From the NCBI GenBank assembly GCA_945607565.1, contig CALYZD010000012.1, forward strand, positions 1 to 41,271: DNA of 41,271 nt. Reading direction: 5' to 3'. This DNA comes from an uncultured Bacteroidales bacterium (GTDB taxonomy: Bacteria > Bacteroidota > Bacteroidia > Bacteroidales > Marinilabiliaceae). The position numbers were made by a program, and so were the translations under genes. The stretch's first letter is position 1. The number at the start of each line of letters is the position of its first letter. The notes below the pieces were generated by a model. The model ran no database searches. It worked only from the letters and a program-made list of their open reading frames with translations, and had not been told where the DNA came from. This document shows, one piece after another, positions 20,111 to 37,745 of this stretch.

Positions 20111-20148
20111 ATAATAAAAAAATCATAGCCGACCTTGGCCGGCTATGA
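20111..20148 (-). terminator. Terminator at the end of the long minus-strand cluster
   Basis: On minus, TCATAGCCG (20148-20140) and CGGCTATGA (20131-20123) form a 9-bp stem with an 8-base loop, followed by TTTTTTTATTAT. It lies 31 bases after the small secreted-protein gene and closes the 22-gene unit that enters from the right edge. Confidence 0.85.
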
Positions 20149-20179: not shown

Positions 20180-20614
20180 TCAGGGCATTTCGCTTTCCGA
20201 ATATTGCTTGACCAACGAGAGGACGGCCCTCGCACAACCTTTGCTTCCATTGGGGCAGAAGAAATGCAATTTATAGGCTCCCGTTTTAGAGCAGACGAAC
20301 TGGAATGCCTTGTAAGTCTTTCCCGATGCGGAATTGGTACCAAGCATTTTTTCGCCATCAAACAACTGAACCACAATCTGTTCGCCATTCCCTTCGCCAT
20401 TAGCAAGGTTCAACTGATAGTGCGTGCGGCTGTTCAATACAACAGAAAACTTCACACCTTCTGCGCCGGCGACATTAATATCGAAGTCCTTTATGTACTG
20501 AAAAGTACCCATGTCTTTGAGTGCTTGCTTCATCAGATCGTCTCCGCACTGTGCCGAAGCCGCGAAGAAACCACAAAGGAATGCTGCTACTACAAATATT
20601 TTTTTCATCGTCAT
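20180..20614 (-). CDS. Small secreted protein of unknown function
   Basis: This protein has 144 residues from ATG 20614; a second ATG at 20608 gives MKKIFVVAAFLCG. Residues 3-21 form a signal peptide (FVVAAFLCGFFAASAQ) with a likely signal peptidase I cut after ASA. The mature part of about 120 residues looks beta-rich (VKFSVVLNSRTHYQLNL, EQIVVQLFDGEKMLG, YKAFQFVCSKTGAYKLHFFC). It has four cysteines, which could form disulfides in the periplasm. I do not recognise the family. The pattern of a ligand-free beta sandwich with GEQI and TGAYKL resembles no enzyme I can name. It lies 20 bases after the lipoprotein gene and is the last gene of the cluster, so it may serve the ABC transporter encoded two genes upstream. 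Confidence 0.75.
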   Translation of the reverse strand: MTMKKIFVVAAFLCGFFAASAQCGDDLMKQALKDMGTFQYIKDFDINVAGAEGVKFSVVLNSRTHYQLNLANGEGNGEQIVVQLFDGEKMLGTNSASGKTYKAFQFVCSKTGAYKLHFFCPNGSKGCARAVLSLVKQYSESEMP

Positions 20615-20634: not shown

Positions 20635-21552
20635 TTAACCTACAATAAACTGGCGTGCAGCCTTGATTTTCTCAATTATGGCAGTTACCTGCTCAGGCGT
20701 AATCTCCACATGGCTGATTTCGTTCTGCTCTATCACAAGCATGCCGTCAACCTCCTTGGTGGTGGGTTCTCCAAATTCGGTCGTGATTTTCACGCCGTCG
20801 TAGCAATCCTTAATCTTCTGAATCTCAGCAACCAGAGCGGCAAAATTATTATCAGCACGACTGAAGTTGTTCAGGATTATCAAAAGAATATTCACGATGT
20901 CCTTCTGCTCGCCCAGGCGATATATAAGATCCTGGTCGTTAGTCTGTTCGATAACAACGCAAGTGATGTATATGCCTTCGAGCCAAGCGCCGGCAACAAT
21001 GGCCGTGCTCACATTGCTGCGGTTTTGCTCGCGCAGATACAGATCCATCTTGTTGAAGCTCGACACCGACAGTTGTTTCAGAGAGTCAAGGTTTGTGCTG
21101 TTGGTCGCCAGACGTTTCAGAGTCGTGAAATCCAAAAACTGACCTACATTCACGCCTTCGGCTAACTCCTTGACTGCGAGCAGATAAGACACCACAACAG
21201 TATTCTTGTTGAATGTATTAATGTAGCCCAGATCTGCGCTATAAACGCCAAGGTTCAAAGCTCTTTTGAAACTCGTATTATAGTTCTTGATGTTGTCCGG
21301 CGAGTTCAAAATCTGCTGCGAGAAACCTGCACCTGATTTCTTGATCTGATTTGCCATTTCGACAGGAGAAGATATGTTCTGTATCATATCCTGAACCACA
21401 TTTTCAGAAAGCTGAAGTGGCGCATTTTTCAAACTATCCGGAATTTCGAAATCGCTGTCAGAAGTCTCGCTGCTTGAGCAGCCGGAGCAACCTGTCATAA
21501 AACTTAAGCAGCAAATGCTTGCCACTCCCCAAAATAATCTTTTGATAATCAT
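20635..21552 (-). CDS. Lipoprotein of unknown function
   Basis: This 305-residue protein has a signal peptide and lipobox (FMTGC, lipidated Cys about residue 22) followed by CSSSETSDSD, an acidic and serine-rich tether that often marks export to the outer membrane or surface in this phylum. The mature part is mostly helical: ENVVQDMIQNISSPVEMANQI, FKRALNLGVYSADLGYI, YLLAVKELAEGVNVGQFL, and ITPEQVTAIIEKIKAARQFI at the end. I do not recognise a named family. The gene begins 20 bases after the ABC transporter gene and is followed 20 bases later by the secreted-protein gene, so the three look like one functional set. A role as an envelope partner of the transporter is inference. Confidence 0.75.
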   Translation of the reverse strand: MIIKRLFWGVASICCLSFMTGCSGCSSSETSDSDFEIPDSLKNAPLQLSENVVQDMIQNISSPVEMANQIKKSGAGFSQQILNSPDNIKNYNTSFKRALNLGVYSADLGYINTFNKNTVVVSYLLAVKELAEGVNVGQFLDFTTLKRLATNSTNLDSLKQLSVSSFNKMDLYLREQNRSNVSTAIVAGAWLEGIYITCVVIEQTNDQDLIYRLGEQKDIVNILLIILNNFSRADNNFAALVAEIQKIKDCYDGVKITTEFGEPTTKEVDGMLVIEQNEISHVEITPEQVTAIIEKIKAARQFIVG

Positions 21553-24656: not shown

Positions 24657-24692
24657 ATATTCCTAAGAAACGCTGATGTTTCTTAGGAATAT
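24657..24692 (-). repeat. 15-bp perfect inverted repeat between siaC-like and ABC transporter genes
   Basis: ATATTCCTAAGAAAC (24657-24671) and GTTTCTTAGGAATAT (24678-24692) with a 6-base loop fill most of the 57-base gap. On minus the following text is AATTCTTTAAATATG, a weak T-tract running into the ABC start. It could be a leaky terminator that lowers transporter expression, or an mRNA stability element. Confidence 0.7.
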
Positions 24693-24701
24693 TGATGTGT
24701 T

Positions 24702-25076
24702 TTAATATATAACGTAGTCAAACGGTATGCTGACAATATCGGCATACTCCTCACCGGCTTCGAGCATGTCGTCCTCGTCTTCGCGGTAGTTCCACTTCAC
24801 GGAAACATTGTTCCCGTTGTCCATAATCTCCTCGAATTTCAACAGAACGTCGAGCAGAACTTTCGACGAAGCCGTGTTGAAATATTCCAGCTTGAATGTC
24901 ACAACTGTTTCGGGATTAGGAGCTTGCGCGTACTCGTCAATCCACTTCAATATCGGCTCGTAGAACATGCTGACATCTTCCGGAAGCGAGCGTCCGGCAA
25001 TTTCGAAAATACCCTTTTCCTTGTCGAGCGTCACCGATGGCGTGTCTTCCGTACCTTTGATATTTATAACTTCCAT
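24702..25076 (-). CDS. SiaC-like protein (DUF1987), target of the Ser/Thr switch
   Basis: SiaC-type proteins are phosphorylated on a threonine by SiaB and dephosphorylated by SiaA. In Pseudomonas aeruginosa the free form activates the diguanylate cyclase SiaD. From ATG 25076 this protein has 124 residues. The conserved segment reads LEYFNTASSKVLLD, and its threonine is residue 68, the same number as the reported phosphosite Thr68 of P. aeruginosa SiaC; this also supports the chosen start over TTG 25085. The rest fits the family: TPSVTLDKEKGIFEIAGRS at the N-terminus, then VKWNYREDEDDMLEAGEEYA. No siaD-like gene follows, so the partner must differ. The gene lies 21 bases after the SiaB-like gene. 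Confidence 0.85.
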   Translation of the reverse strand: MEVINIKGTEDTPSVTLDKEKGIFEIAGRSLPEDVSMFYEPILKWIDEYAQAPNPETVVTFKLEYFNTASSKVLLDVLLKFEEIMDNGNNVSVKWNYREDEDDMLEAGEEYADIVSIPFDYVIY

Positions 25077-25097
25077 TTTTTGCAATTTAAAATTCGA

Positions 25098-25670
25098 TTA
25101 ATTTCTTGATATAGTTGTGATAATGATGAAGAAACTCAATTCTGGAGTGAGGTCTTTGAACTGATAGTCGATCTTGTTGCCAGATTTTTTGGCAATGTCG
25201 ATGAAGCCAAGACCGGCGCCACCCTTTTCCGATATCTTGCCTTCTTTGATCTGCTGCTTGTACAAAGCCGAAAGTCCTTCTTTATCAAGGCTGTTGATGT
25301 GCTGAAGAGTTTTTTCGAGAAATTCTTTTTTCTCTTTTTTAATCACGTTGCCGGTAATCACGTTGTACGACTCTTCGCCATGGCTGACAAGCACGATTCC
25401 ACGACGGCCCTCGCCTTCGTCATCACTCATAGGATCAGCATGTTTGCTGATGTTCTGCAAACATTCAACCATTACGTTGAAAACTTTTCGCTGCACCTGG
25501 TTCGACTCTTCGTTCTTCACCATGTTCTTCTCGGTGAGTGCAGTGAATGTTCTGGTAATTTCCTGAGTCACAACACCTTCGTAAACCAGATTGATTTCAT
25601 TGGCCTGCATCGTGTGATACAATTGATATGCGAACTCAAGAAAATCTTTATTACCGCTAATCTTATTCAT
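25098..25670 (-). CDS. SiaB-like kinase (DUF6272, GHKL fold)
   Basis: SiaB phosphorylates SiaC. The 190-residue protein shows a GHKL-like ATP site: an N-box in VFNVMVECLQNISKHAD (Glu69, Asn73, His77) and a G-box in SEKGGAGLGFIDIAKKSG (residues 148-164), as in anti-sigma kinases and the DUF6272 family. It has no membrane segment. It sits between the phosphatase gene (47 bases upstream) and the SiaC-like gene (21 bases downstream), the same A-B-C order as siaABC. A weak -7-like box (TAGATTTG, 25720-25713 on minus) overlaps the end of the phosphatase gene, with no matching -33. Confidence 0.82.
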   Translation of the reverse strand: MNKISGNKDFLEFAYQLYHTMQANEINLVYEGVVTQEITRTFTALTEKNMVKNEESNQVQRKVFNVMVECLQNISKHADPMSDDEGEGRRGIVLVSHGEESYNVITGNVIKKEKKEFLEKTLQHINSLDKEGLSALYKQQIKEGKISEKGGAGLGFIDIAKKSGNKIDYQFKDLTPELSFFIIITTISRN

Positions 25671-25717
25671 AATCTTCCAATTTTTACAGTGTGTAAATAT
25701 ACTTAATTAGTACAAAT

Positions 25718-28345
25718 CTATAATTCTATGCCAATCAATAATACGTCATCGACCTGTTTTTCATCGCCTACCCAATCGTAGAAATCCTTCACAACTTCCT
25801 GAGATATTGCACTCATGCTCTCCGAAGAAGTTCTTTCGAGCAGCTCTCTGAATTTTTTCGTCTGATATTTTTTCTTCACGCCCGGGCCGCCTCCCAACTG
25901 GTCGGGCAGACCGTCAGAGAATACGAAAAATCTGTCGCCCTGTTCATATTTTATGATATTATTTTCGAAATTATTTTCCGGTTTTTTGGCCAGCGGAATA
26001 CCGCCAATGCCTTTCCTTGTCCCCTTATACTCAGTAAATTCGGAGCCTCGCATATAATAGAGCGGACGGTGGGCGCCGGCAAACTGAATTTCCTGCTTGT
26101 CGCGGTCTATGCGGCAGAGGCCCAAATCCATACCGTCGCGGCCGTTGGCGCCGTCCTGGTCCTGCCGCAGCGTGGTCCGGACGGCCGAATGCAATCGGTC
26201 GAGCACTTCGGAGGCCGGCAGGTCGCGGCCGGCGTCGGTGATGTTGTTGAGCAGGAAATATCCGATAAACGACAGCAAAGCGCCAGGCACGCCGTGCCCG
26301 GTACAGTCGACGGCAGCGATGTAGCAAATGTTATCGAAGTGGAACATCCAGGGGAAGTCGCCACTGACCACGTCCTTGGGCCGATAGAACATGAACGACC
26401 TCGGGAAATACTGCTGCAAGACATTGGTATCAGGCAAGATGGCTGTCTGGATTCGTTTCGCGTAGTTGATACTATCCTGAATCTTCTTGTTCTTGTCCTT
26501 AATGTCCTGCTCGATGCGCTTGAACTCCGTAACGTCGTGAACGGCAAACAGTATCGACTCCAGCTCGTCGCTTTCGGCAAGTTCGGGAATGGCCTTCACC
26601 TCCACAATTCGCAATTCGCCATCCACCTCGACTTCGATTTCGGAAATCATGTGCTGACGAGTGCGCTTTATCTCCTTCAGCGTCGAACCAACATACTCGG
26701 TGAAATTCTTGTCGATGTCGACCTCGGTTATCTTCATTTTCATCAGCTCGGACGTTGGCATGTGCATGAAGCGCGAGGCGGCCGGATTGACATAAACCAT
26801 CTTTCCAATCGTGTTGGTTCGGATAATCATATCCGGCGAGTTTTCGGACAGCGACTGCATACGGCTCTTCATACGTTCCTCACGTTCTGCGCGTTTGCGT
26901 TCCGTAATATCGCGGGTATTGAAAATGAGTCCTCGGATGGCAGGGTCGTGCAAGAGGTTTTTGCCTTGCGTTTCGAGGAATATTTTTTCGCCGTTTTTCT
27001 TCAGATAGGTGTACTGCTCCATCGCCTCGCCGCCGGGCGTGGCAAGCAGATAGTCGAACATGGCGCAGATGTTGCGATAACCCTTGGGCGTCATCATTTC
27101 GATGTCCATGCCGTGAACCTCGTCGCCGGGGTCGTAGCCAAGGATTCGCCTTATCGACGGGCTTTCGAACAGCAGGTCTTTGTTTTCGTTGTAAATTGAT
27201 ATGAATTCGGAGGCATTTGTCAACAGCACCTCCAGCTTCTTCTGCCCATTCTCGACCTCCTGAATCTTGGTGGCCAGCAGTTTGTTGCTCTTCTCCAATT
27301 CCGCCTGAGCATCAAGCATTTCCTGAGCATTCTGATGCAACTGCTCCTCGTTTTTGCGGAGCGTGGCCGTCATCTGCTGCGACTCCCAAAGCAATCTTTC
27401 GGTTTTTGCACTGATATTCAGGTTATAAATTGTGCCGCCTATGATCGAGCACAACTCTTCGGCCAACGACAAATAATATTGCGGGAGCTTCGTTCTCAGA
27501 AAACTCAACTCAAGCACACCCTGAGTCTCGTTTTCCTGAAGCAGAGGAATTATCAAGAGCGATTGCGGCCGTTGATCACCCAAAAGGCCGGATGTGATGG
27601 TGAAATAATCGTCCGGGATTTCGGTCCGGTAGATCAACTGACGCTCGTAGGCGGCGGCGCCAATCAGTCCTTTGCCCATCGGAATAGAATTTTTCTCGTA
27701 GCGACGACGCCCGTAGGCGTACTGCGTCACAAGGTCCAGCGACTGGCCGTGCAGCAGATAAAACGCTCCTTGCACGGCGCCATAGTAGCTCACTACGCCT
27801 TCGAGCACGTTCTCCGACAAATCTTCTATCTTGTTATGAAGACGCATTATGTCGGAGATTTTTTCTTTGCCTTTCGAAACCCAACTGAACTGTTCTTCGC
27901 GTTCGCGCGTCACTTTCAGGCTTTTGCCAAGATTCATCAGGGTTTTCTGCAACTCGGAATTTTCGTTTATTGTCAGGTCCAGGTCTTGACCCGACCCAAT
28001 CTTTCCGGCCAGCAGAATGCTCTTGTCAATCTGATTCGAAAGATTTGCAATCTGCTTGTTCAGTTTCGAAAGATTCAGACGCTTGAAATTGACGATGCAC
28101 AAATAGGACAGCGGCACAATCAGGGTCATGGCATTGAACAGCCACACAAAAAAGTAGCGATGGATGAAACAGATGTTCCGGAACGATACGCTAAAGCCTA
28201 ATAAATCCATTATCGCCACCCAGCCCAACAGCATGACAAACACCACTGATATGACTACCGCATACCACTGCATCTCGCTGAAACCCCTGGGAGACAGATA
28301 CCTGACGATATCAACAATATTCGTATTGCCTTCTTTCTTAGACAT
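25718..28345 (-). CDS. SiaA-like membrane phosphatase: GAF, two PAS, PP2C (SpoIIE) domain
   Basis: An 875-residue sensor phosphatase. Two membrane helices (about 27-47 and 64-86) are followed by a HAMP-like helical stretch, a GAF domain (about 165-310, with IPDDYFTITSGLLG) and a coiled coil (about 310-370). Two PAS domains (about 375-490 and 500-625, each ending in DITERKRAE or DVTEFKRIE) and a C-terminal PP2C/SpoIIE domain (about 645-875) complete it. The phosphatase metal motifs are present: VVSGDFPW, AAVDCTGHGVPGALLS, FVFSDGLPDQ and DDVLLIGIEL. It should remove phosphate from the SiaC-like protein encoded two genes downstream, or from a STAS protein. Classical SiaA has a periplasmic sensor and HAMP rather than GAF and PAS domains, so the input here is probably cytoplasmic. 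It starts 14 bases after the GAF gene. Confidence 0.88.
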   Translation of the reverse strand: MSKKEGNTNIVDIVRYLSPRGFSEMQWYAVVISVVFVMLLGWVAIMDLLGFSVSFRNICFIHRYFFVWLFNAMTLIVPLSYLCIVNFKRLNLSKLNKQIANLSNQIDKSILLAGKIGSGQDLDLTINENSELQKTLMNLGKSLKVTREREEQFSWVSKGKEKISDIMRLHNKIEDLSENVLEGVVSYYGAVQGAFYLLHGQSLDLVTQYAYGRRRYEKNSIPMGKGLIGAAAYERQLIYRTEIPDDYFTITSGLLGDQRPQSLLIIPLLQENETQGVLELSFLRTKLPQYYLSLAEELCSIIGGTIYNLNISAKTERLLWESQQMTATLRKNEEQLHQNAQEMLDAQAELEKSNKLLATKIQEVENGQKKLEVLLTNASEFISIYNENKDLLFESPSIRRILGYDPGDEVHGMDIEMMTPKGYRNICAMFDYLLATPGGEAMEQYTYLKKNGEKIFLETQGKNLLHDPAIRGLIFNTRDITERKRAEREERMKSRMQSLSENSPDMIIRTNTIGKMVYVNPAASRFMHMPTSELMKMKITEVDIDKNFTEYVGSTLKEIKRTRQHMISEIEVEVDGELRIVEVKAIPELAESDELESILFAVHDVTEFKRIEQDIKDKNKKIQDSINYAKRIQTAILPDTNVLQQYFPRSFMFYRPKDVVSGDFPWMFHFDNICYIAAVDCTGHGVPGALLSFIGYFLLNNITDAGRDLPASEVLDRLHSAVRTTLRQDQDGANGRDGMDLGLCRIDRDKQEIQFAGAHRPLYYMRGSEFTEYKGTRKGIGGIPLAKKPENNFENNIIKYEQGDRFFVFSDGLPDQLGGGPGVKKKYQTKKFRELLERTSSESMSAISQEVVKDFYDWVGDEKQVDDVLLIGIEL

Positions 28346-28359
28346 TTCTCATTTTTCGT

Positions 28360-29253
28360 TTATAATACTATCGAAAGCCCCGTGCACACATCATTCCATA
28401 TGTCAACAAGGCCCAATTTGCCGAAACTTGAAATTTCAATAACGCCAATCACTTCGCTGTTCTTTTTTAGCGGCAAGAACGATAGCGAAACTTTGTTTGT
28501 CGAGCCCAGACCGGACAAAACGGTCAGATAGCTGTCTGGCACATCGTCCACAACCACCACTTTCCCAGACGAATAGGCCTGCCAGAGAAATCCGGCTCCA
28601 GCCTCGACTTCCCTGACGACCGGCTCGTCGCTGAGTGCAAATGTGCCTGCCAACAGACATTTCCCGGTCGCTTCATCATTCAAATATACTATTCCACCGC
28701 AAATTTCGTAACATTCGGCCAGAGCCTTCATCAAAAACTGTCCGGGCAGCGAGCCGGGCTCGGCCGCAGCCCTGTTGCGCGCAACGGCGTTCACAAACAC
28801 CTGACTCTTGAGGCCGAATGTCTGCTGATGGCGGGCTATCGTCTTCATTTCCATCAGCTCCGACTTCAGCGAACGCAGTTCGGCCTCTCTTTTGCGCAGG
28901 AGCAGATGCTTTTCGTGAACCTCGCTCTTGCTGTTCTCGACAAGCCGGCGCGCCACTATCAGTACATACAGCAGAATAAGAGCAAAGAATGCCACAAACA
29001 CCAGATTTACAGAAACATATATAGTTTCGCGCAAACTATAGGCCGCAATCTGCCAGACGGCAAACAGCACCACGCCGACCGTCATGATGACCAGAAGCCA
29101 TGACACCTGGTTCTTGGAGTATCGCTCCGATACGTTTTTGACGATTGTCTGCACCGACACCGCCAGCCAATCTTTCGACCGTGCACCGAATGCTGACATT
29201 GATACCAATGCCTGTCTGACAACCGTATATATTTTAACAAAATATTCTTTCAT
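28360..29253 (-). CDS. Membrane protein with GAF domain and no output domain
   Basis: This 297-residue protein starts at ATG 29253, which overlaps the stop of the CheB-like gene as ATGA, so translation is coupled. A longer frame to 29454 lies inside the CheB-like gene and has no protein-like features at its start. Two adjacent membrane helices (WLLVIMTVGVVLFAVWQIAAY and VSVNLVFVAFFALILLYVLIVAR) are followed by a coiled coil (HLLLRKREAELRSLKSELMEM). A C-terminal GAF domain follows, with VPDSYLTVLSGLG and VIGVIEISSFGKLG. It has no kinase, cyclase or receptor signalling domain. The GAF domain resembles those of the phosphatase and of the sensor at 31445-33322. It may be a sensory partner of these or of the CheB/CheR pair. 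Confidence 0.78.
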   Translation of the reverse strand: MKEYFVKIYTVVRQALVSMSAFGARSKDWLAVSVQTIVKNVSERYSKNQVSWLLVIMTVGVVLFAVWQIAAYSLRETIYVSVNLVFVAFFALILLYVLIVARRLVENSKSEVHEKHLLLRKREAELRSLKSELMEMKTIARHQQTFGLKSQVFVNAVARNRAAAEPGSLPGQFLMKALAECYEICGGIVYLNDEATGKCLLAGTFALSDEPVVREVEAGAGFLWQAYSSGKVVVVDDVPDSYLTVLSGLGSTNKVSLSFLPLKKNSEVIGVIEISSFGKLGLVDIWNDVCTGLSIVL

Positions 29254-29825
29254 ACCAATTTGTTCAAAAAATCGATTATGCCGTCGGGCGACAGAATCAA
29301 GTCCGGGGTCATCAGCCGCAATGCCGACTTCGGCATGGTATCGACCTCGGCCGTGAGCGGATCCTGCACTATTGTGAAGCCTTTTTTGTCGGCAATATCC
29401 TTCAGACCCTTTGCTCCGTCTTTGTTGGCACCCGTCAGGATTATCCCTATACATCTGTCACGAAAAGCCACCGACGCCGACGACAGGGTGTAGTCGATCG
29501 ACGGCCGGCTCTGATTGTTGAGTTCCTCGATGGAAAGCGAAATCGTTCCGTCAAATTCCACAAACATGTGGTAGTTCGACGGCGCCAGATACACGTTGCC
29601 GGCCTCGATCTTCTGTTTGTCGGCCGGCTCGATGATTGGCAGCTTCGATTTCATCCGCAGACTCTCGACCAAGCCGCTTCGGACGTGCTTGAGGCGATGC
29701 ATGCAGATTATTATCGGTATCGAAAATTGCTTGTCCAAATTCGACAACACCTTCAGTACCAATGCAAAACTACCGGCAGAACCGCCAATTACAACTGCTT
29801 TATATTTGTCGAAATCCTTGCTCAT
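29250..29825 (-). CDS. CheB-type methylesterase without receiver domain
   Basis: CheB enzymes remove methyl groups from glutamates of chemoreceptors. This 191-residue protein is the catalytic domain alone. The nucleophile loop is VVIGGSAGSF (Ser16), the histidine is in CMHRLKHV (His43) and the aspartate in ILTGANKDGAKG (Asp136), so the triad is intact. The N-terminal receiver found in normal CheB is missing, so CheA cannot control it by phosphorylation. It stands 1 base after the degenerate CheR gene and overlaps the GAF gene by 4 bases. Together with the CheR pair it forms a second modification set in the same transcript. The substrate may be the chemoreceptor or one of the GAF/PAS proteins. 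Confidence 0.87.
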   Translation of the reverse strand: MSKDFDKYKAVVIGGSAGSFALVLKVLSNLDKQFSIPIIICMHRLKHVRSGLVESLRMKSKLPIIEPADKQKIEAGNVYLAPSNYHMFVEFDGTISLSIEELNNQSRPSIDYTLSSASVAFRDRCIGIILTGANKDGAKGLKDIADKKGFTIVQDPLTAEVDTMPKSALRLMTPDLILSPDGIIDFLNKLV

Positions 29826-29826
29826 A

Positions 29827-30627
29827 CTAATTTTTCATGTACACTTGCTCGTCGGCGTTCAACAAAGCATACAACGTTTTGGCCGATGCCGGCAGGCTAT
29901 CCTTGATTCCTATCGAAAGCAATCCGTTGGCATTCAGCCTTGTATGCAGAAACGCAAACACATCGTCCTGCAACTCTTTGCCGAAAAGCAGCGAATTGTT
30001 CCTGAAAAATATCAAATCGTATTTCGTTTCCGAAACATCGTTCAAAAACCATTTCTTCTCGAACGTCACATTGCGCATCAGGTCGGCGTTTATCTTGCAG
30101 TCGAAATCAGATTTCGCAAAATAATCGTCGAAACTCCCGGTCATCTGCGTCCGCTCAAAGTTCGACCGGTTGATTTCGTCCATCTTGGGCGTCACGATGC
30201 CCGAGGCAATCGCATCGAGCCCGGCCTGCGACGAGTGCTGCACGTTGATTGCAGCCTTGTCCAACAGCCCCAACTGGCTCAGGATAATCAGCAGGCCATA
30301 CAGTTCCTCGCCACTCGAAATATCAGGGAACCAAACGTTTATCTTATCCGAATATCGCTGAGGAATAATCTTTTTCATCAGACGCCAATAGGCCGGGTCG
30401 CGAAACAGTTCTGCAACCGGAACTGACATGTTGTAGCAAAATCTGTCGACGAACTGCGGATCGTCCAGCAGCTCCACAAACTGCTGCTTCTTCTTGACCA
30501 GCAGCTTGTCGAGGACGAACGACAACCGTCTGCGAAAAAAAGACAGCCCATATCGCGAGAAAACCACGCCGGTTTTTTCGTCGACCACTGGGAGCAACTC
30601 TTTTATGTCAGAATATCCTAAATACAT
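29827..30627 (-). CDS. Degenerate CheR-like protein, probably not a methyltransferase
   Basis: This 266-residue protein (ATG 30627; a GTG at 30630 is an alternative) is collinear with the CheR encoded next to it. Both share an N-terminal helical part, an ELFRDP segment, INVWFPDISSGEELYGLLI in place of SAM motif I, and IFFRNNSLLF in place of FFRNVMIYF. The motif I glycine and cysteine of GCSSGQE are replaced (DISSGEE). The acidic SAM-ribose residue of GTDIN is lost (NVQHSSQ). It therefore probably cannot bind SAM normally. Overlap with the stop of the CheR gene (TGATG) shows tight coupling. A regulatory or dimer partner of that CheR, or a peptide-binding pseudoenzyme, is possible but not shown. 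Confidence 0.75.
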   Translation of the reverse strand: MYLGYSDIKELLPVVDEKTGVVFSRYGLSFFRRRLSFVLDKLLVKKKQQFVELLDDPQFVDRFCYNMSVPVAELFRDPAYWRLMKKIIPQRYSDKINVWFPDISSGEELYGLLIILSQLGLLDKAAINVQHSSQAGLDAIASGIVTPKMDEINRSNFERTQMTGSFDDYFAKSDFDCKINADLMRNVTFEKKWFLNDVSETKYDLIFFRNNSLLFGKELQDDVFAFLHTRLNANGLLSIGIKDSLPASAKTLYALLNADEQVYMKN

Positions 30628-31433
30628 CACAGTTTGGTATAATACATCCCGTCCTTAACATATCTGCCCTTGAAGGTCAGCGGCAACATCTCGCGCTTGC
30701 CAAGCACCAGCGAACCGCCCTGGTACATCCGCTCGGTCAGCGTGTTTATGACTTTTATCTGTAGATTTTCCTTGAAATATATCATCACATTTCGAAAGAA
30801 AACGACATCTACTTTGTAGGCAAAAGGCAGTCTGTTTGTCACCAGATCATATTGATAAAACTTCGGTTCTTTCTTCAGAAAGTCTTTTACCGAAATCGTG
30901 TCGTTGGCCTCGTCGATGTCGAAATAATCTTCGAAGCGCGACTTGCTGCCTATCCGGTGCATCACTTCGTCAAAGTTGTTGCGATAGCTTGAGTTGAAAC
31001 TCTTGGCGTAGACCCCGGCACGCGCCTTCTGCAACATGTTGACATTGATGTCGGTACCGATTATCCTGCACTTGTCGAGCACTCCGAGCTGGTGCATGAG
31101 AATCATGTTTGTGTACACCTCCTGCCCCGACGAACAGCCGGCATGCCAGAATGTCAGCTTGTTTTTTTTTTGCAACTGCGGATAGAGCCTGTCATACAAA
31201 AACGACCACACGTCAGGGTCTCGAAACAGCTCCGTGGTGTTGACCGTGATGTCGTCAACCAGCTTGTTGATAAACGATGGATCCTCGCCGACCTTTCCAA
31301 GCATCTGCTCGAGCGTCATACGATAGTCGTCCTGCATTTTCTGAATACGCCGATAAATCGAGTTGTCAGAATAATCACAGAAGTTGTATGGCGTCCGTTC
31401 GCTTAGTTTTTCCAGAAAGGTCTTGATTTCCAT
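30627..31433 (-). CDS. cheR: CheR-type protein-glutamate methyltransferase (second copy)
   Basis: CheR methylates receptor glutamates using SAM. The 268 residues include an N-terminal helical domain, TVNTTELFRDPDVW, SAM motif I in FWHAGCSSGQEVYTN, the acidic ribose contact in IIGTDINVNML, and VDVVFFRNVMIYF. These are the conserved family signatures, so it should be active. It is clearly different from the CheR at 35937-36800 and belongs with the degenerate copy and the receiver-less CheB downstream. It begins 11 bases after the GAF/PAS sensor gene. The start ATG 31433 follows a purine-rich stretch on minus. Confidence 0.9.
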   Translation of the reverse strand: MEIKTFLEKLSERTPYNFCDYSDNSIYRRIQKMQDDYRMTLEQMLGKVGEDPSFINKLVDDITVNTTELFRDPDVWSFLYDRLYPQLQKKNKLTFWHAGCSSGQEVYTNMILMHQLGVLDKCRIIGTDINVNMLQKARAGVYAKSFNSSYRNNFDEVMHRIGSKSRFEDYFDIDEANDTISVKDFLKKEPKFYQYDLVTNRLPFAYKVDVVFFRNVMIYFKENLQIKVINTLTERMYQGGSLVLGKREMLPLTFKGRYVKDGMYYTKL

Positions 31434-31444
31434 AAAGGAGCAGG

Positions 31445-33322
31445 TTAGAACAATTCAACTTCGACATTTTGAATGAAGGCCGTAAACGAATGGTCGTCAC
31501 CCACTTCGGCATCCGAGAGCAAGAACAGAACCGGGACTTCCTCGCCATATTTGTTCTTGATCGGCACCTCGCGGCGCTCGCCGATGATTTTCTTTTCGTC
31601 GGGCGTCACAAAGGCTTTGATGAAGGCGTTGTCCTTCTTGGACGTGTCCGAAAACAGCATCTCCACGTTTTTACCAAGGACTTCGGCGCGTTCGTAGCCC
31701 CAGAGTTTTTCGGCGGCGGCGTTGAAAAATTCGAGCACACCGTCCTTGTTTGTGGTGATGATGGCGTCCAGCGCGCCTTCGAGCGTCTTCTCGTTGCGCA
31801 CCTTCACGGCCTCTATTTCCTTGAACTGCTCTTTCATTTCGTTGCGCGCATCCTCGAGCATTATGCCAAGTTCCTCCTTGCTGCGCTTCATTTCCTGCTC
31901 AAGTTTGACCTGATCGGCAATGTCCGTTTCGAGGCTCAGGATTTTCAGAATCTCGCCCTCGTTATCAATCACGGGCGTGTAGGTTGACTGCAGCCAAACC
32001 TCATCGCCCGATTTGGTTCGGCGACGGACGCGTCCGTTGAATGTCCGGCGCTCGCCGATTGTGCGGAGAATCTCGTCCAGCTCCTCGGTGTCGTCCTTGA
32101 AGAAGAATATCTTAAGATTCTGACCTTCAACCTCTTCGGGCTTATAGCCGAATGTCTTCAGGAAGTTGTGGTTGACGTTTATGATTGTTCCGTCGGTTTC
32201 GAATTCGCAGCTCATGGCGGCATGGTTGATGGCCTCGATGATACCCTTGGTCTCGATTTCGCGACGCTCGTTCTCCTCTTGCGTAGCCTGCATCTCTTCG
32301 AGGTTCTGCCTCAGTTCCTCCTCCTGCTGAGCCATCTTTTCGGCCTGAATCTGAGTCTCTCTCAGCAGTTCGGACGTCTGGATGTTGGTCCGGACGGTCG
32401 AGATGGTCTGGGCGATACTTTCGGCCGTCTTCTCCACAAAGTTGATCTCGTACTCCATAAACGGCTTGAACGACGCCATTTCGATGACGCCGAAAATCTC
32501 GTCGTTGGCCTTGAGAGGCACCAGCAGCAGCGACCGCGGGTTCGACTCGCCGAGGCCGGACGTGACCGTGATGTAATTGTCCGGAATGTCGGTGATATAA
32601 ATCGTTTCCTTTTCGAGACCGCAACGGCCAATCAGGCCCTCGCCCCACTTTATGGTTTTGTCGGCAAATTTCTTGCGATTGAAGGCCACGAAACCTGTCA
32701 GTTCGAAATATTTCTGTCCGTCGGACGATGTGTTGAGAATGAAAAATCCGGCCTGATTAATCTTCATATAATCAACCAGATACCTGATGATATTGTACGA
32801 CAGCACCTCCATGTTGTCGTTGTTGCGGCGCAAGATTTCGGCAAACTGTGCGACGCCGTTGGTCACCCACGTGCGCTGGTCTTCCTCTACCCTTCGCTGC
32901 TCCTCGATGTGCTTGTTGCGTATCATGTTCTCGCGCAGGCGGTTGAGTGAATGGCCGAGGTGGTCGTCTTCGCTTTTGATGTCGAGCTCATTTTCGAAAT
33001 GGCCTTCGCCGAGTTCGTCGACGAATTCGAGGACGATTTTCGAGCGTTTCTCCTCTTCGATCAGCGAATGGTTCTGGCGACGGATGATTTTCGACAGTTG
33101 CCGAGCCAGAAAATATCCGGCAAGCGCAAGGATGACCGGGAGTATGAAAATGATCCACAAGCCGGGGAATATGTTAACGAAATCGGATATTGTCCTATCC
33201 GTTTCGTGAAAGGCCTCAGAGTTCATACCGAGAAGGATTATGATCAGCGTCAGGAAGACGCCGAGAAGAAAACCCCTCATCGCATAGGTTGTGACGATCC
33301 TTTTGACTTTTACTTTTTTCAT
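31445..33322 (-). CDS. Membrane GAF/PAS sensor with no output domain
   Basis: This 625-residue protein has two membrane helices (about 12-33 and 50-71) with a short loop, then a HAMP-like segment (LARQLSKIIRRQ and following helices) and a GAF domain (about 145-305, with IPDNYITVTSGLG and VIEMASFKPF). A glutamine- and glutamate-rich coiled coil (about 305-360) leads to PAS domain 1 (about 362-485), a second coiled coil, and PAS domain 2 (about 515-625) at the very C-terminus. No histidine kinase, GGDEF, phosphatase or chemoreceptor signalling domain is present. It lies between the CheB gene (38 bases upstream) and the second CheR gene (11 bases downstream). It may be a scaffold, or glutamates in its coiled coils could be the target of the second CheR/CheB set. 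That idea is inference. Confidence 0.82.
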   Translation of the reverse strand: MKKVKVKRIVTTYAMRGFLLGVFLTLIIILLGMNSEAFHETDRTISDFVNIFPGLWIIFILPVILALAGYFLARQLSKIIRRQNHSLIEEEKRSKIVLEFVDELGEGHFENELDIKSEDDHLGHSLNRLRENMIRNKHIEEQRRVEEDQRTWVTNGVAQFAEILRRNNDNMEVLSYNIIRYLVDYMKINQAGFFILNTSSDGQKYFELTGFVAFNRKKFADKTIKWGEGLIGRCGLEKETIYITDIPDNYITVTSGLGESNPRSLLLVPLKANDEIFGVIEMASFKPFMEYEINFVEKTAESIAQTISTVRTNIQTSELLRETQIQAEKMAQQEEELRQNLEEMQATQEENERREIETKGIIEAINHAAMSCEFETDGTIINVNHNFLKTFGYKPEEVEGQNLKIFFFKDDTEELDEILRTIGERRTFNGRVRRRTKSGDEVWLQSTYTPVIDNEGEILKILSLETDIADQVKLEQEMKRSKEELGIMLEDARNEMKEQFKEIEAVKVRNEKTLEGALDAIITTNKDGVLEFFNAAAEKLWGYERAEVLGKNVEMLFSDTSKKDNAFIKAFVTPDEKKIIGERREVPIKNKYGEEVPVLFLLSDAEVGDDHSFTAFIQNVEVELF

Positions 33323-33360
33323 TGATTCTTAAAGATAAGATGGTTTCTACAATCAACTTT

Positions 33361-34485
33361 TCATTTGTGGCGCTGCAGGAATTGCGGCATGGCGTTCAGC
33401 GGCATGACCTCGTCGACGGCGCCGGCCTTGATTGCCTCCTTGGGCATTCCGAAAACCACACACGAGGCTTCGTCCTGCGCGATTGTCAGCGCGCCGGCAT
33501 CGTGCATCTCCTGCATGCCTTTGGCACCGTCGTTGCCCATGCCTGTCAGAATGACGCCTATCGCGTTGTTGCCGGCATAGCGCGCCGCCGAGCGGAAAAG
33601 CACGTCGACCGAGGGCCTATGGCGGTTGACCAGCGGTCCTTCCTTAACTTCGACAAAATATTCCTTGCCGACCCGCTTGAGCAGCATGTGCTTGTTTCCG
33701 GGCGCTATCAGGACGCGGCCTTTGTACAATTTGTCGCCGTTTTCGGCTTCCTTCACCTCCAGTTCGGATATCTGGTTGAGGCTGTTAGAGAACGAACGAG
33801 TGAAGCCTTCGGGCATGTGTTGCACTATCGCTATTCCGGGCATATTGTTCGGCAGCTGACGCAGCAGGCTGCGGATGGCCTCGGTGCCGCCCGTCGACGA
33901 ACCGAGCACTATCACCTTGTCGGTGTTGACGATTATGTCGTTGCCGCCGCCTTTTTCGAGCATCACGTCGGCTGAATATTTGGGGCGGACTTGAATTGTA
34001 GCGTTTGTGACCGGCTGCGACGCGGCCGCCGGCTCTGGCGCCTGACTCTGCTCAAACAGTTCGGGCTTCTTGCGCGAGAGCTTGGCGTGCGCTGCGGCTT
34101 TGACGACGTCGCAAAGCATAATGTGCTCTTCCTGGAAGAACAGATCGGGATTCATCGTCGGTTTTCCTATTATTTCGCTCGCGCCGTACTCCAAAGCCTT
34201 GAGTGCGGTCTGAGTTCCGGCAGTCGTCAACGATGATATCACCACAACCGGAATAGGATGCTGAGTCATTATTTTTCGCAAGAAAGTAAGACCGTCCATT
34301 CGCGGCATTTCTATATCCAACGTGATGACATCCGGCACTTCTTTCATTATCTTTTTCACCGCAATAATCGGATCGGCCGCAGTGCCCATCACTTCGATTT
34401 CGGGGTCGGATTCCAAAATCGAAGACAATGACTGACGAACCACTGCCGAGTCATCAACGATAAGAACTCTTATTTTCTTACACAT
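33361..34485 (-). CDS. cheB: Chemotaxis response regulator methylesterase CheB
   Basis: Full-length CheB, 374 residues. The N-terminal receiver (1-125) has [11 protein letters not shown] (Asp11, Asp12), phosphoacceptor Asp57 in [11 protein letters not shown], and IGKPT. A linker of about 65 residues rich in Ala, Pro and Gln leads to the methylesterase domain (about 190-374) with nucleophile Ser197 in GSSTGGTEA, His223 in QHMPEGF and Asp319 in GMGNDGAKG. Phosphorylation by CheA should relieve inhibition and promote demethylation or deamidation of the receptor. It sits 38 bases after cheD in the core chemosensory unit. Confidence 0.96.
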
Positions 34486-34523
34486 TGCAATTTCTCCTTA
34501 ATAAACTGATTAAAACGAGAATT

Positions 34524-34997
34524 TCAGAATTCCCGTTTCTCCAAAAACTTATGCCTTACTTCACCTGTGTCTGTGAAGAAAAGTATCTTCCGTCCTCTTT
34601 TCCCTCCGGTGCTCGACCCGACTACCGGAATCTTCTTCTCCTCCAGCATTATTTTTGCTATCGTTATGTTCCTTTCGCCTATCATGGTCGAAGAGCGGAC
34701 GCCGCCGATGTCCAGCAGCTCGCCGCCGCCAAACACTTTGGCTTGCAGGTCTTCCAAACGGCTTCCCATGCTCAGCATCTTTTCGACCAATTTGTCGATG
34801 GCAATGTTACCATATTTGGGCGATGCCAAATCGTTGCCGCTCCACGAGGGCAACATGTAATGGTTGATTCCACCGATATGCAGGCGCTTGTCCCACAAAC
34901 AAACTGCTACACACGACCCCAGCACCGTCTTGACGACGTAGGGATCTTTACTGGCAAAGAACGACGAAGGATATAAAAAATGTTGTAAATATTCCAT
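34524..34997 (-). CDS. cheD: Chemoreceptor glutamine deamidase CheD
   Basis: CheD deamidates selected receptor glutamines to glutamates and, where CheC is present, acts in a second adaptation loop. This 157-residue protein has the catalytic cysteine in TVLGSCVAVCLWD (Cys29) and the histidine in GGINHYMLP (His46). It continues with AKVFGGGELL and GERNITIAKIML, all typical of the family. No cheC lies in the window. The gene is 12 bases after the kinase-like gene and 38 bases before cheB, inside the core cluster. Confidence 0.95.
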   Translation of the reverse strand: MEYLQHFLYPSSFFASKDPYVVKTVLGSCVAVCLWDKRLHIGGINHYMLPSWSGNDLASPKYGNIAIDKLVEKMLSMGSRLEDLQAKVFGGGELLDIGGVRSSTMIGERNITIAKIMLEEKKIPVVGSSTGGKRGRKILFFTDTGEVRHKFLEKREF

Positions 34998-35009
34998 TCG
35001 TCTATGTCT

Positions 35010-35909
35010 TTAAAATATCTCGTCTCCCTCGTCAAAAAACATGTCGTCTCCCTCTCCCGTGAAGCTGTCCACCACATTTTGAGATTCCGGAACCGAAATT
35101 GTGAATGTCGTGCCCTCGCCCTTCTGACTCTGAATCTGAATGTCGCCGTTCAGCACGTCGAGCAATGCCTTGGTTATCGACAGGCCCAGGCCGTGACCCT
35201 GGTTGATCGAGTTGATGCCGGTGTCGAGTCGCTTGAAGCGGTCGAAGATGATCTTCTGGTTCTTCTCCGAAATGCCGGTGCCGAAGTCCTGAATCGAGAT
35301 GTGAAGCACGTCGTCGTCGACCCATAGCTTCATGATTACCTTGCTGTCTTTATAGCTGTATTTCACTGCATTGTTGAGCAGATTGCACAGAACCTGCTTC
35401 AGCTTTTCGGAGTCAGTCTTGTAATAATAGTTCTTGCCGAAGCCGAACTCGATGTCGTAGTCGAGCACGATTTCGATACCCATCTTGCGGGCCACCACCG
35501 AGAATGAGTCGATGACCGACTGCACCAGGCTCCTGACGTTCACCTTGGAGATGTTGGGGGCGATTTCGCCGGCTTCGATCTTGGCCGCCGTGAAGATGTT
35601 ACGCAACTGGAAATCGAGGTTGAAGGCTTCGTTGTGTATCAATGCGACCATCGACACGACCTTCTTCCAATCCTGCTTCTCGACCGAAAGAATCGACTTG
35701 GACAAGCCGATTATCGATGTGAAGGGGTTGACGATTTCGTTGGTGATATTTGATATGAAGTGGCTTTTCAAAGCTTCGGAATCTTTCAGCCTCTTGCTCA
35801 CTGCCTGATAATCGGCAGACATAGCATACAGTTTATCTTCAATAGACTTGCGTTCTTCCAGCCTCTGCTTCAGTTCCTTTAGCAACTGTTTGTCCGATAG
35901 GTTGTTCAT
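35010..35909 (-). CDS. Histidine-kinase-like protein with Asn in place of the H-box histidine
   Basis: A 299-residue cytoplasmic protein. It has an N-terminal coiled coil (about 1-48), a DHp-like helical hairpin (about 49-115), and a GHKL ATPase domain (about 150-275) with NLLNNAVKYS (N-box), DFGTGIS (G1) and GHGLGLSITKAL (G2). It ends in an acidic tail. The H-box reads SNITNEIVNPFTSIIG, where normal kinases have S-H-E-hydrophobic-R-T-P. The phosphoacceptor is Asn57 (codon AAC at 35741-35739), and Arg-Thr is Val-Asn. It should therefore bind ATP but not phosphorylate itself in the usual way. His50 lies seven residues earlier and could be discussed as a substitute. It sits between cheD and cheR and may act as an adaptor or allosteric partner. 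Confidence 0.85.
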   Translation of the reverse strand: MNNLSDKQLLKELKQRLEERKSIEDKLYAMSADYQAVSKRLKDSEALKSHFISNITNEIVNPFTSIIGLSKSILSVEKQDWKKVVSMVALIHNEAFNLDFQLRNIFTAAKIEAGEIAPNISKVNVRSLVQSVIDSFSVVARKMGIEIVLDYDIEFGFGKNYYYKTDSEKLKQVLCNLLNNAVKYSYKDSKVIMKLWVDDDVLHISIQDFGTGISEKNQKIIFDRFKRLDTGINSINQGHGLGLSITKALLDVLNGDIQIQSQKGEGTTFTISVPESQNVVDSFTGEGDDMFFDEGDEIF

Positions 35910-35936
35910 AGTTTTCGTTCTCTTTATGTTCGTTCT

Positions 35937-36800
35937 CTACTTTTTTCTGAATATAGTCGGCTTTATGTTTTCCAAGGGCACGTTCATGTTCGACACCGAT
36001 TCTGAATGGCCAATGAAGAAATATCCATCAGGCGCCAGATGATGGCATAGTTTGTTGATTACCTTTTCTTGCGTTTCGCGGTCAAAATATATCAATACGT
36101 TTCGACAAAAAATCACATCAAATGTTTCGTTGATATCATAAACCGGATCCATCAGGTTCTGATATTTCAACTTTATGTTCTTCTGCAGCAAGGGGCTCAC
36201 CCTCACCGTTGGATTTGTACGGTCTTTGCTGCGCAAAAGATACTTTCGCTTGAGGCTCAACGGCACAATATCGACCGATTTTTCGGGATAAACCCCTTTC
36301 GAAGCCTTCTCGATGACGTTGGCCGATATGTCCGAACCCAGCAGACTGAATTTCATCTGCGGATGCTCTTCGATGAACTCGTTCACAACCATCGATATGG
36401 TATAGAGTTCTTCGCCACTCGAGCATGCTGAACTCCAGATTTTTACGTCGAATCTGTTCTTCTGCAGAAGTTCGGGCAGCACCACTTGCGTCAGAAAATC
36501 GAAATGCACCGATTCGCGAAAGAAGTCGGTCTTGTTCGTCGTGATGACGCTCAGGAAATCATACAGCTCGTTTTTCTGGCCTTCGGGACTGAAAAAGTAT
36601 TTTCTGTACTCCGAATACGACTTCATGTTCAGCTCGCGGATGCGCTTCAGCAATCTGCCCTGCAACATAACCCTCTTGATGTCGGGCATTTTTATTCCGT
36701 ATTCGGAATAAATGTAATCGCTGAATGCCTTGAAATCCGAACTTGACAATTCGGCTTTGAAGCAATCCATGTCGCTGTGCATGTTTTCGTCGAGGTTCAT
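35937..36800 (-). CDS. cheR: CheR-type chemoreceptor methyltransferase (first copy)
   Basis: This 287-residue CheR has the N-terminal helical domain (SDFKAFSDYIYSEYGIKM, LLKRIRELN), the substrate-site motif TTNKTDFFRE, and SAM motif I in IWSSACSSGEELYT. The ribose contact is in LLGSDISANVI and the conserved FDVIFCRNVLIYFD, with GYFFIGHSES, follows. All catalytic signatures are intact. The start TGACATG places its ATG 1 base after the stop of the first cheW. With cheB and cheD it gives the core array a full adaptation set. The receptor tail NYEKF encoded at 40621 could be its docking site. Confidence 0.95.
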   Translation of the reverse strand: MNLDENMHSDMDCFKAELSSSDFKAFSDYIYSEYGIKMPDIKRVMLQGRLLKRIRELNMKSYSEYRKYFFSPEGQKNELYDFLSVITTNKTDFFRESVHFDFLTQVVLPELLQKNRFDVKIWSSACSSGEELYTISMVVNEFIEEHPQMKFSLLGSDISANVIEKASKGVYPEKSVDIVPLSLKRKYLLRSKDRTNPTVRVSPLLQKNIKLKYQNLMDPVYDINETFDVIFCRNVLIYFDRETQEKVINKLCHHLAPDGYFFIGHSESVSNMNVPLENIKPTIFRKK

Positions 36801-36801
36801 G

Positions 36802-37263
36802 TCAGTTTGCCGTTAACGAAATAATATCCGTGTCCGAAAATATCCTGTCCGCGTTGATTATCAGAGCCAGCGTGTCGTCGTCGCCCTTGACGGCGCAGTT
36901 GACGTAGTCCGGCTTGTACTTTCCTTCGATGGGCTGCTTGCGGTCGTCGTCGATTTCCATCACCTCCGACACGTGGTCGACGGCCAAAGCCACATCGAAC
37001 GACTCGCCTGCCGAGTTGATTTTCAGCACAATGACACACGACTGGTCATTGAGTTCTATCGGCTTCATGCCGAACTTGACGCCGGTGTCGATGAGCGGTA
37101 TCACGTTGCCGCGATGCTCGACCAGTCCGAGCAGATATGGAAGATTGCTGGGGTTCGACTTGGGCTGGACGTATTCCATGATCTCAACCACGCTGTCGAC
37201 GTGCACGCCATACGTGTTGCCGGCAACCTTGAATGTCAAATATGAATTGATTATCTCTTCCAT
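36802..37263 (-). CDS. cheW: CheW coupling protein
   Basis: CheW links chemoreceptor tips to CheA in the array. This 153-residue protein is one CheW domain: YLTFKVAGNTYGVHVDSVVEIM, PYLLGLVEHRGNVIPLIDT with the conserved RGxxxPhhD signature including Arg51, and VALAVDHVSEVM. The arginine that contacts CheA P5 is kept. It is the more canonical of two adjacent CheW genes and is spaced 5 bases from the second. Confidence 0.93.
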   Translation of the reverse strand: MEEIINSYLTFKVAGNTYGVHVDSVVEIMEYVQPKSNPSNLPYLLGLVEHRGNVIPLIDTGVKFGMKPIELNDQSCVIVLKINSAGESFDVALAVDHVSEVMEIDDDRKQPIEGKYKPDYVNCAVKGDDDTLALIINADRIFSDTDIISLTAN

Positions 37264-37268
37264 GATTC

Positions 37269-37718
37269 CTATTTCTCCAATATATTCGACATCTCTTGCA
37301 TATCAATCAGATACACAAATTTATCATCATATTTCAGCGAGCCTTTCATGGTCTTGGTCAGGCTGTTGTCTATGTTCAGAACCACATTCTTGTCCAGTGT
37401 CTCGACGTTGGCGTCGAACACATCATAGACTTCGTCCACAAAAAAGCCAAGCAGCGAAGTGTTCTCGTCGTCAACCGAAACCACGATTATCGACGCCTCG
37501 GGCTGCGGCTCGTCGGTCTCGACGCCAATCAGTTTTCTGAAATCAATGACCGGTATCATATTGCCATGGTTGTTGACGATGCCCATGTAATACGGCTTTG
37601 CAAGCGGGACGTTGGTGATGGTTGTGCGTTCCAGAATATGACGGATCACCATCGTGCTCAGACCAAAATACTCGCCTGCCGACTTGAATGAGGTTATTGA
37701 CTCTATTTTTTCGCTCAT
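37269..37718 (-). CDS. cheW: Divergent CheW-domain protein
   Basis: This 149-residue protein is the second CheW domain of the cluster: SFKSAGEYFGLSTMVIRHIL, PYYMGIVNNHGNMIPVIDF, LGFFVDEVYDVF. The pattern aligns with the first CheW, but the conserved arginine of the RGxxxP motif is His51. In Escherichia coli CheW the equivalent arginine (Arg62) is needed for CheA and receptor binding, so this copy may bind a different partner or form CheW-only rings. It lies between cheA (27 bases) and the first cheW (5 bases). Confidence 0.88.
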   Translation of the reverse strand: MSEKIESITSFKSAGEYFGLSTMVIRHILERTTITNVPLAKPYYMGIVNNHGNMIPVIDFRKLIGVETDEPQPEASIIVVSVDDENTSLLGFFVDEVYDVFDANVETLDKNVVLNIDNSLTKTMKGSLKYDDKFVYLIDMQEMSNILEK

Positions 37719-37745
37719 GGCTTCGTTTTTGACTTTAATGAATTG

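Follow-up and report, generated by a model that had tools for sequence, protein, structure and literature searches.

What does a SiaABC-type partner switch control where no diguanylate cyclase is encoded beside it? The only SiaC studied, as far as the open-access literature shows, controls a diguanylate cyclase: in Pseudomonas aeruginosa (Pa), unphosphorylated SiaC binds and activates SiaD, and phosphorylation of Thr68 blocks this (PMC8457831, PMC7278518). The question is raised by a 41,271-nucleotide stretch of DNA (the window) from an uncultured Bacteroidales bacterium of the Marinilabiliaceae (GenBank GCA_945607565.1, contig CALYZD010000012.1), in which genes for SiaA-, SiaB- and SiaC-like proteins are followed by a gene for an ATP-binding cassette (ABC) transporter. 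The preferred answer, held at a probability of about 0.7, is that the switch has been re-targeted from a diguanylate cyclase to this transporter. A functional link between SiaC and the transporter is well supported, and at that level so is the original prediction that the switch may control transport rather than cyclic di-GMP (c-di-GMP); direct binding, its site and sign, the change in transport and the substrate are what we infer.

The SiaABC-type module and its transporter

The three switch proteins are encoded on the minus strand in the order siaA-siaB-siaC, as the original prediction had read them. Family assignments are clear, with Pfam E-values of 3.9e-41 for SiaC (PF09345), 1.1e-42 for DUF6272 and 1.5e-19 for SpoIIE, and with 168 bits to the NCBIfam SiaB-family kinase model NF038262 (cut-off 85). 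SiaC and SiaB match the P. aeruginosa structures 6KKO/6KKP/7E6G (PDB, E ~1e-14), the SiaB-like protein matching 6KKO_A at 1.4e-14 and aligning the Glu of its ECLQN motif to that of PaSiaB EMTQN; the earlier GHKL label is consistent with a DUF6272/SiaB kinase. The SiaA-like protein has two N-terminal membrane segments predicted from sequence, a GAF domain, PAS repeats and a C-terminal SpoIIE/PP2C domain that matches the PaSiaA PP2C structure 6K4E (PDB, E 1.2e-34) and keeps the motifs VVSGDF, VDCTGHG, SDG and DDV. The NCBIfam equivalog cut-offs for the Pseudomonas proteins are not reached (SiaC 87.8 of 150, SiaB 87.3 of 225 and SiaA 169.6 of 700 bits); thus, the three are family members and not equivalogs. 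The module is a SiaABC-type switch rather than a SiaABCD system; in it, SiaB is predicted to phosphorylate Thr68 and SiaA to remove the phosphate.

The phosphosite of PaSiaC aligns to Thr68 (in YFNTASS) when residues are counted from the ATG, in agreement with the residue originally proposed; translation is less likely to begin at the listed TTG, position 25085. Related loci supplied 90 SiaC proteins for comparison: all of them have N67, and at position 68 there is Thr in 82, Ser in 7 and Ala in 1 (Thr or Ser in 89/90). The sole Ala belongs to a SiaC beside a second-type transporter gene that is split by a DDE_5 transposase gene (locus L091, 3912-8974), a single case that lies in the direction expected were the phosphosite to serve the transporter.

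The gene after siaC is, as first noted, no GGDEF gene; it encodes an ABC transporter extended by additional domains at the N-terminus (Pfam E-values: ABC_tran 3.5e-31, ABC2_membrane 9e-21, TerB 8.6e-9). It is a single chain with a nucleotide-binding domain (NBD) followed by a transmembrane domain (TMD), unlike the separate subunits of MlaFEDB, and Pfam finds no MCE domain in it. An AlphaFold2 (AF2) model of residues 1-250, built from 74 sequences, has a mean predicted local distance difference test (pLDDT) score of 91.5 and consists of seven helices followed by a beta domain. In Foldseek searches with this region FHA domains rank top (best E 5e-3 only, probability 1.0), and the Porphyromonas gingivalis protein 2H5N, which we take to be a TerB-like protein, is also returned. 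Across the 74 sequences the FHA-like domain keeps the structural residues N201, G202 and G216; of the phosphobinding motif, neither an Arg nor SxxH nor the first Asn is conserved. With these canonical residues absent, the domain has an FHA-like fold but is unlikely to read phosphothreonine. Between the NBD and the membrane domain, 16/16 aligned transporters share an invariant C-x-x-CGN (C492, C495, G496 and N497), and this stretch of residues ~490-500 is a possible metal or disulfide site. The lipoprotein encoded next is predicted to be helical with a small C-terminal sheet, and a PDB fold search with it gave no match.

Linkage and absence of c-di-GMP enzymes across genomes

The TerB-FHA region of the transporter is matched in 60/60 genomes of the family, and in 55 of these siaC is the gene immediately upstream, with the same orientation. 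We read the five exceptions as (i) three genomes whose genes are split between contigs or reach the end of one (G010, G018 and G045), (ii) a partial genome without SiaC (G013), and (iii) one lacking an identified partner SiaC copy (G029). In 37 family genomes a paralogous siaB-siaC pair lies convergent to a second transporter gene, and a third pair is divergent from a transporter in four. The full run SiaA-SiaB-SiaC-ABC-lipoprotein-p144 (the last a 144-residue protein) is kept in Marinilabiliaceae and Salinivirgaceae and in members of the Cytophagales (for example Flexithrix, Fulvivirga, Nafulsella, Cesiribacter and Marivirga). Other layouts include siaB-siaC convergent with the ABC gene, siaC-siaB divergent from ABC-siaA, and SiaC-lipoprotein-ABC. 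Thus, the SiaC-transporter pair occurs in several arrangements and is not one frozen operon.

A phylum-wide sample was uninformative, with SiaC in 3/61 genomes, and the class Bacteroidia was sampled instead. Of 296 genomes, 156 encode SiaC and 154 the TerB-transporter; both are present in 145, SiaC only in 11, the transporter only in 9 and neither in 131 (odds ratio 192, Fisher P 2e-58, phylogeny not corrected for). Tree distances correlate at r 0.87 for SiaC and SiaB and, moderately and with shared ancestry included, at r 0.73 for SiaC and the transporter. The siaC-transporter neighbourhood, on whose conservation the original prediction had been staked, is kept in the family and recurs in Cytophagales, and across the class the two genes co-occur.

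A GGDEF partner elsewhere, named at the outset as what would speak against transport as the output, was also sought. No GGDEF or EAL domain was found in the window's genome assembly (~93% complete), where the same searches detected positive controls and where four SiaC copies are encoded. Within the family, where positive controls were likewise detected, GGDEF is present in 0/60 genomes (completeness 90% or more in 47) and SiaC in 59/60; among the 296 Bacteroidia, GGDEF occurs in five, two of which (G194 and G324) also encode SiaC. A hidden c-di-GMP output was rejected on the strength of these absences.

SiaC is also encoded away from the transporter. Several of the SiaC-only genomes among the loci fetched have SiaB-SiaC-SiaB-SiaC tandems with chemosensory genes; in L249, L250, L252 and L254 such tandems lie beside CheR/CheB with no adjoining TerB-transporter, and L250 and L254 have SiaA as well. 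Thus, SiaC has other outputs too in Bacteroidia. In two genomes of one family that share a layout, SiaB-SiaC lies beside a bacterial sugar transferase gene with no transporter nearby (L261, 6002-8471, where the Bac_transf domain was found, and L262).

A proposed transport switch and its rivals

In the proposed mechanism, SiaB as kinase and the membrane-bound GAF/PAS/PP2C protein SiaA as phosphatase would together set the phosphorylation of SiaC at Thr68. In its unphosphorylated state this STAS-like protein most likely docks on the TerB-FHA-ABCG transporter, at either the N-terminal TerB/FHA-like region or the NBD, and would thereby change how the transporter assembles or its ATPase activity; once phosphorylated by SiaB, SiaC would be released. 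The lipoprotein and the small secreted protein encoded in the same run may work with the transporter. By analogy to SiaD and MlaB, the effect of SiaC is expected to be activation. The authors of the SiaC-SiaD work noted the STAS-like fold and suggested that DUF1987 proteins modulate their neighbours generally (PMC8457831). The STAS protein MlaB binds the ABC ATPase MlaF with Thr52 at the interface, and T52E weakens binding; control by phosphorylation was proposed, with no kinase or phosphatase named and with phosphorylation of Thr52 itself stated to be open (PMC7367683). The open-access literature yielded a single paper that names DUF1987 and no link between SiaC and a transporter, subscription papers being outside its scope.

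A hint that residues 1-240 could be the SiaC docking site comes from transporters compared at equal NBD identity. Conservation is somewhat higher in SiaC-linked than in unlinked proteins for the TerB (0.56 vs 0.47) and FHA-like (0.42 vs 0.35) domains and about equal for the membrane and ecto regions, the sequence pairs compared not being independent. That the upstream chemosensory genes feed the phosphatase is speculation. The wider scheme, in which an ABC transporter is gated directly by a phospho-switchable STAS-like protein with a dedicated kinase and phosphatase, and in which signals from the surrounding chemosensory cluster reach that phosphatase, would form a chemosensory-to-export pathway without a second messenger and is tentative.

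Several observations weigh against a switch that acts on the transporter. Since the FHA-like domain lacks its phosphobinding residues, it does not on its own account for coupling, and the co-occurrence statistic ignores phylogeny. TerB-transporters without SiaC within ~4-10 kb exist (13 with sufficient flanks), as do SiaB-SiaC pairs without an ABC neighbour; thus, each can also be partnered by something else. The window's own genome has two tandem SiaC genes (L066, 4715-7488) convergent with an unrelated 671-residue protein with an ABC-ATPase domain, and a further SiaC copy there lies on a different contig from the nearest second ABC gene.

The strongest competitor, distinctly less probable, is that SiaABC and the transporter are co-regulated in one response and make no contact, the partner of SiaC being elsewhere or, for example, a chemosensory or GAF protein. 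The CheB/CheR/GAF genes around the module are kept in many relatives, and the SiaB-SiaC pairs next to CheR-CheB without a transporter fit this explanation as well. By contrast, the convergent and divergent SiaB-SiaC/ABC pairs keep the ABC gene without chemosensory genes, and the transporter is what all layouts have in common.

Capture of phospho-Thr68 SiaC by the FHA-like domain, in the manner of Rv1747 FHA I, would make kinase rather than phosphatase activity recruit SiaC. The fold is predicted with high confidence beside a Ser/Thr phosphoprotein, and in mycobacteria the FHA-ABC transporter Rv1747 has a phosphothreonine protein as its partner (PMC5549992). The unconserved phosphobinding residues make this improbable, as do the location of the SiaC phosphosite at a helix start and the loss of partner binding when PaSiaC is phosphorylated (PMC8457831). 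Capture was rejected with the fold supported and these residues absent.

Frozen synteny without functional coupling is very improbable: shared ancestry could alone keep neighbours together inside one family, whereas the pair turns up in different arrangements and in more than one order, with both genes present or missing together genome-wide. An overlooked diguanylate or other nucleotide cyclase as the real partner, as in P. aeruginosa, finds room in an incomplete assembly and has next to no probability given the family and class counts of GGDEF and the lack of EAL in the window's genome.

Surrounding genes and comparison with known systems

Features of the locus, with positions in the window
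Feature	Position	Strand	Evidence
Chemosensory genes	29250..39815	-	Pfam; sequence reading for CheW-like and third CheR
GAF-domain membrane protein, 14 bp upstream of siaA	28360..29454	-	Pfam
SiaA-type phosphatase, 875 aa	25718..28345	-	Pfam/NCBIfam; PDB match to PaSiaA PP2C 6K4E
SiaB-family (DUF6272) Ser/Thr kinase, 190 aa	25098..25670	-	Pfam, NCBIfam; PDB match 6KKO_A
SiaC (DUF1987), STAS-like, predicted regulatory phosphoprotein, 123 aa from ATG	24702..25073	-	Pfam; PDB matches
Perfect 15-bp hairpin without T-tract, siaC-ABC gap	24657..24692	-	Minimum free energy -19.5; RNA z-score -8.2
TerB-like + FHA-like + ABCG-type half-transporter (NBD then TMD), 1023 aa	21573..24644	-	Pfam, AF2, Foldseek
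Lipoprotein, 305 aa, conserved alongside transporter	20635..21552	-	Loci of relatives; structure prediction
144-aa protein, signal-peptide-like N-terminus, final gene of conserved run	20180..20614	-	Loci of relatives
Terminator-like hairpin with T-tract, 3' of last gene	20123..20148	-	Hairpin found in sequence

The sia-transporter run sits inside a chemosensory gene cluster and continues past the transporter gene, two points that the original prediction missed. Its seven genes, from the GAF-domain protein through SiaA, SiaB, SiaC, the transporter and the lipoprotein to the 144-residue protein, are all on the minus strand with successive gaps of 14, 47, 24, 57, 20 and 20 bp. The listed start of the GAF-domain gene overlaps a cheB-like gene, and its true start is probably internal. 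The chemosensory set comprises CheB methylesterase alone, two CheR, a GAF-PAS protein, CheB with a receiver, CheD, a histidine kinase, CheR, two CheW-like proteins and CheA. The hairpin between siaC and the transporter is a possible attenuator or mRNA-stability element, by which one transcript could yield more SiaC than transporter; the corresponding gaps of 24/61 relatives also fold below -8 kcal/mol.

The SiaC family is common in bacteria without a diguanylate cyclase, and the linkage described here provides it with a concrete and widely conserved alternative output. Its consistent pairing with an unusual ABC transporter in Bacteroidota that have no c-di-GMP-making enzyme suggests that the switch turns transport on and off in them. 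The kinase and phosphatase encoded here fill a gap in the MlaB question, namely phospho-control of ABC transporters through a bound STAS-like protein, and make such control testable; the TerB/FHA-like domains found on transporters likewise gain a testable role.

Four known systems offer comparison. The module shares with SiaABCD of P. aeruginosa the homologous phosphatase, kinase and SiaC, the gene order, the Thr68 phosphosite and a membrane-bound phosphatase sensor. By contrast, SiaD/GGDEF is replaced by an ABC transporter as the next gene, and the SiaA sensor is GAF plus PAS rather than HAMP. Similarly to MlaB, which modulates an ABC transporter through MlaF of the MlaFEDB lipid transporter, SiaC is small, has a STAS-like fold and carries a Thr where the phosphosite lies; it differs in that a dedicated kinase and phosphatase are encoded, that binding is here presumed, and that the putative target, rather than being an MCE system, fuses NBD and TMD in an ABCG-type half-transporter that bears TerB/FHA-like domains. 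Rv1747 with PknF/Rv2623 of Mycobacterium tuberculosis likewise has an FHA fold before the NBD-TMD of an ABC transporter with Ser/Thr phosphorylation nearby, whereas the FHA-like domain here is without phosphobinding residues, is preceded by TerB and is accompanied by a SiaABC-type kinase, phosphatase and phosphoprotein. The SpoIIAB/SpoIIAA/SpoIIE and Rsb partner switches follow the same logic of kinase, STAS-like substrate and PP2C phosphatase; their output is a sigma factor, while that proposed here is a transporter.

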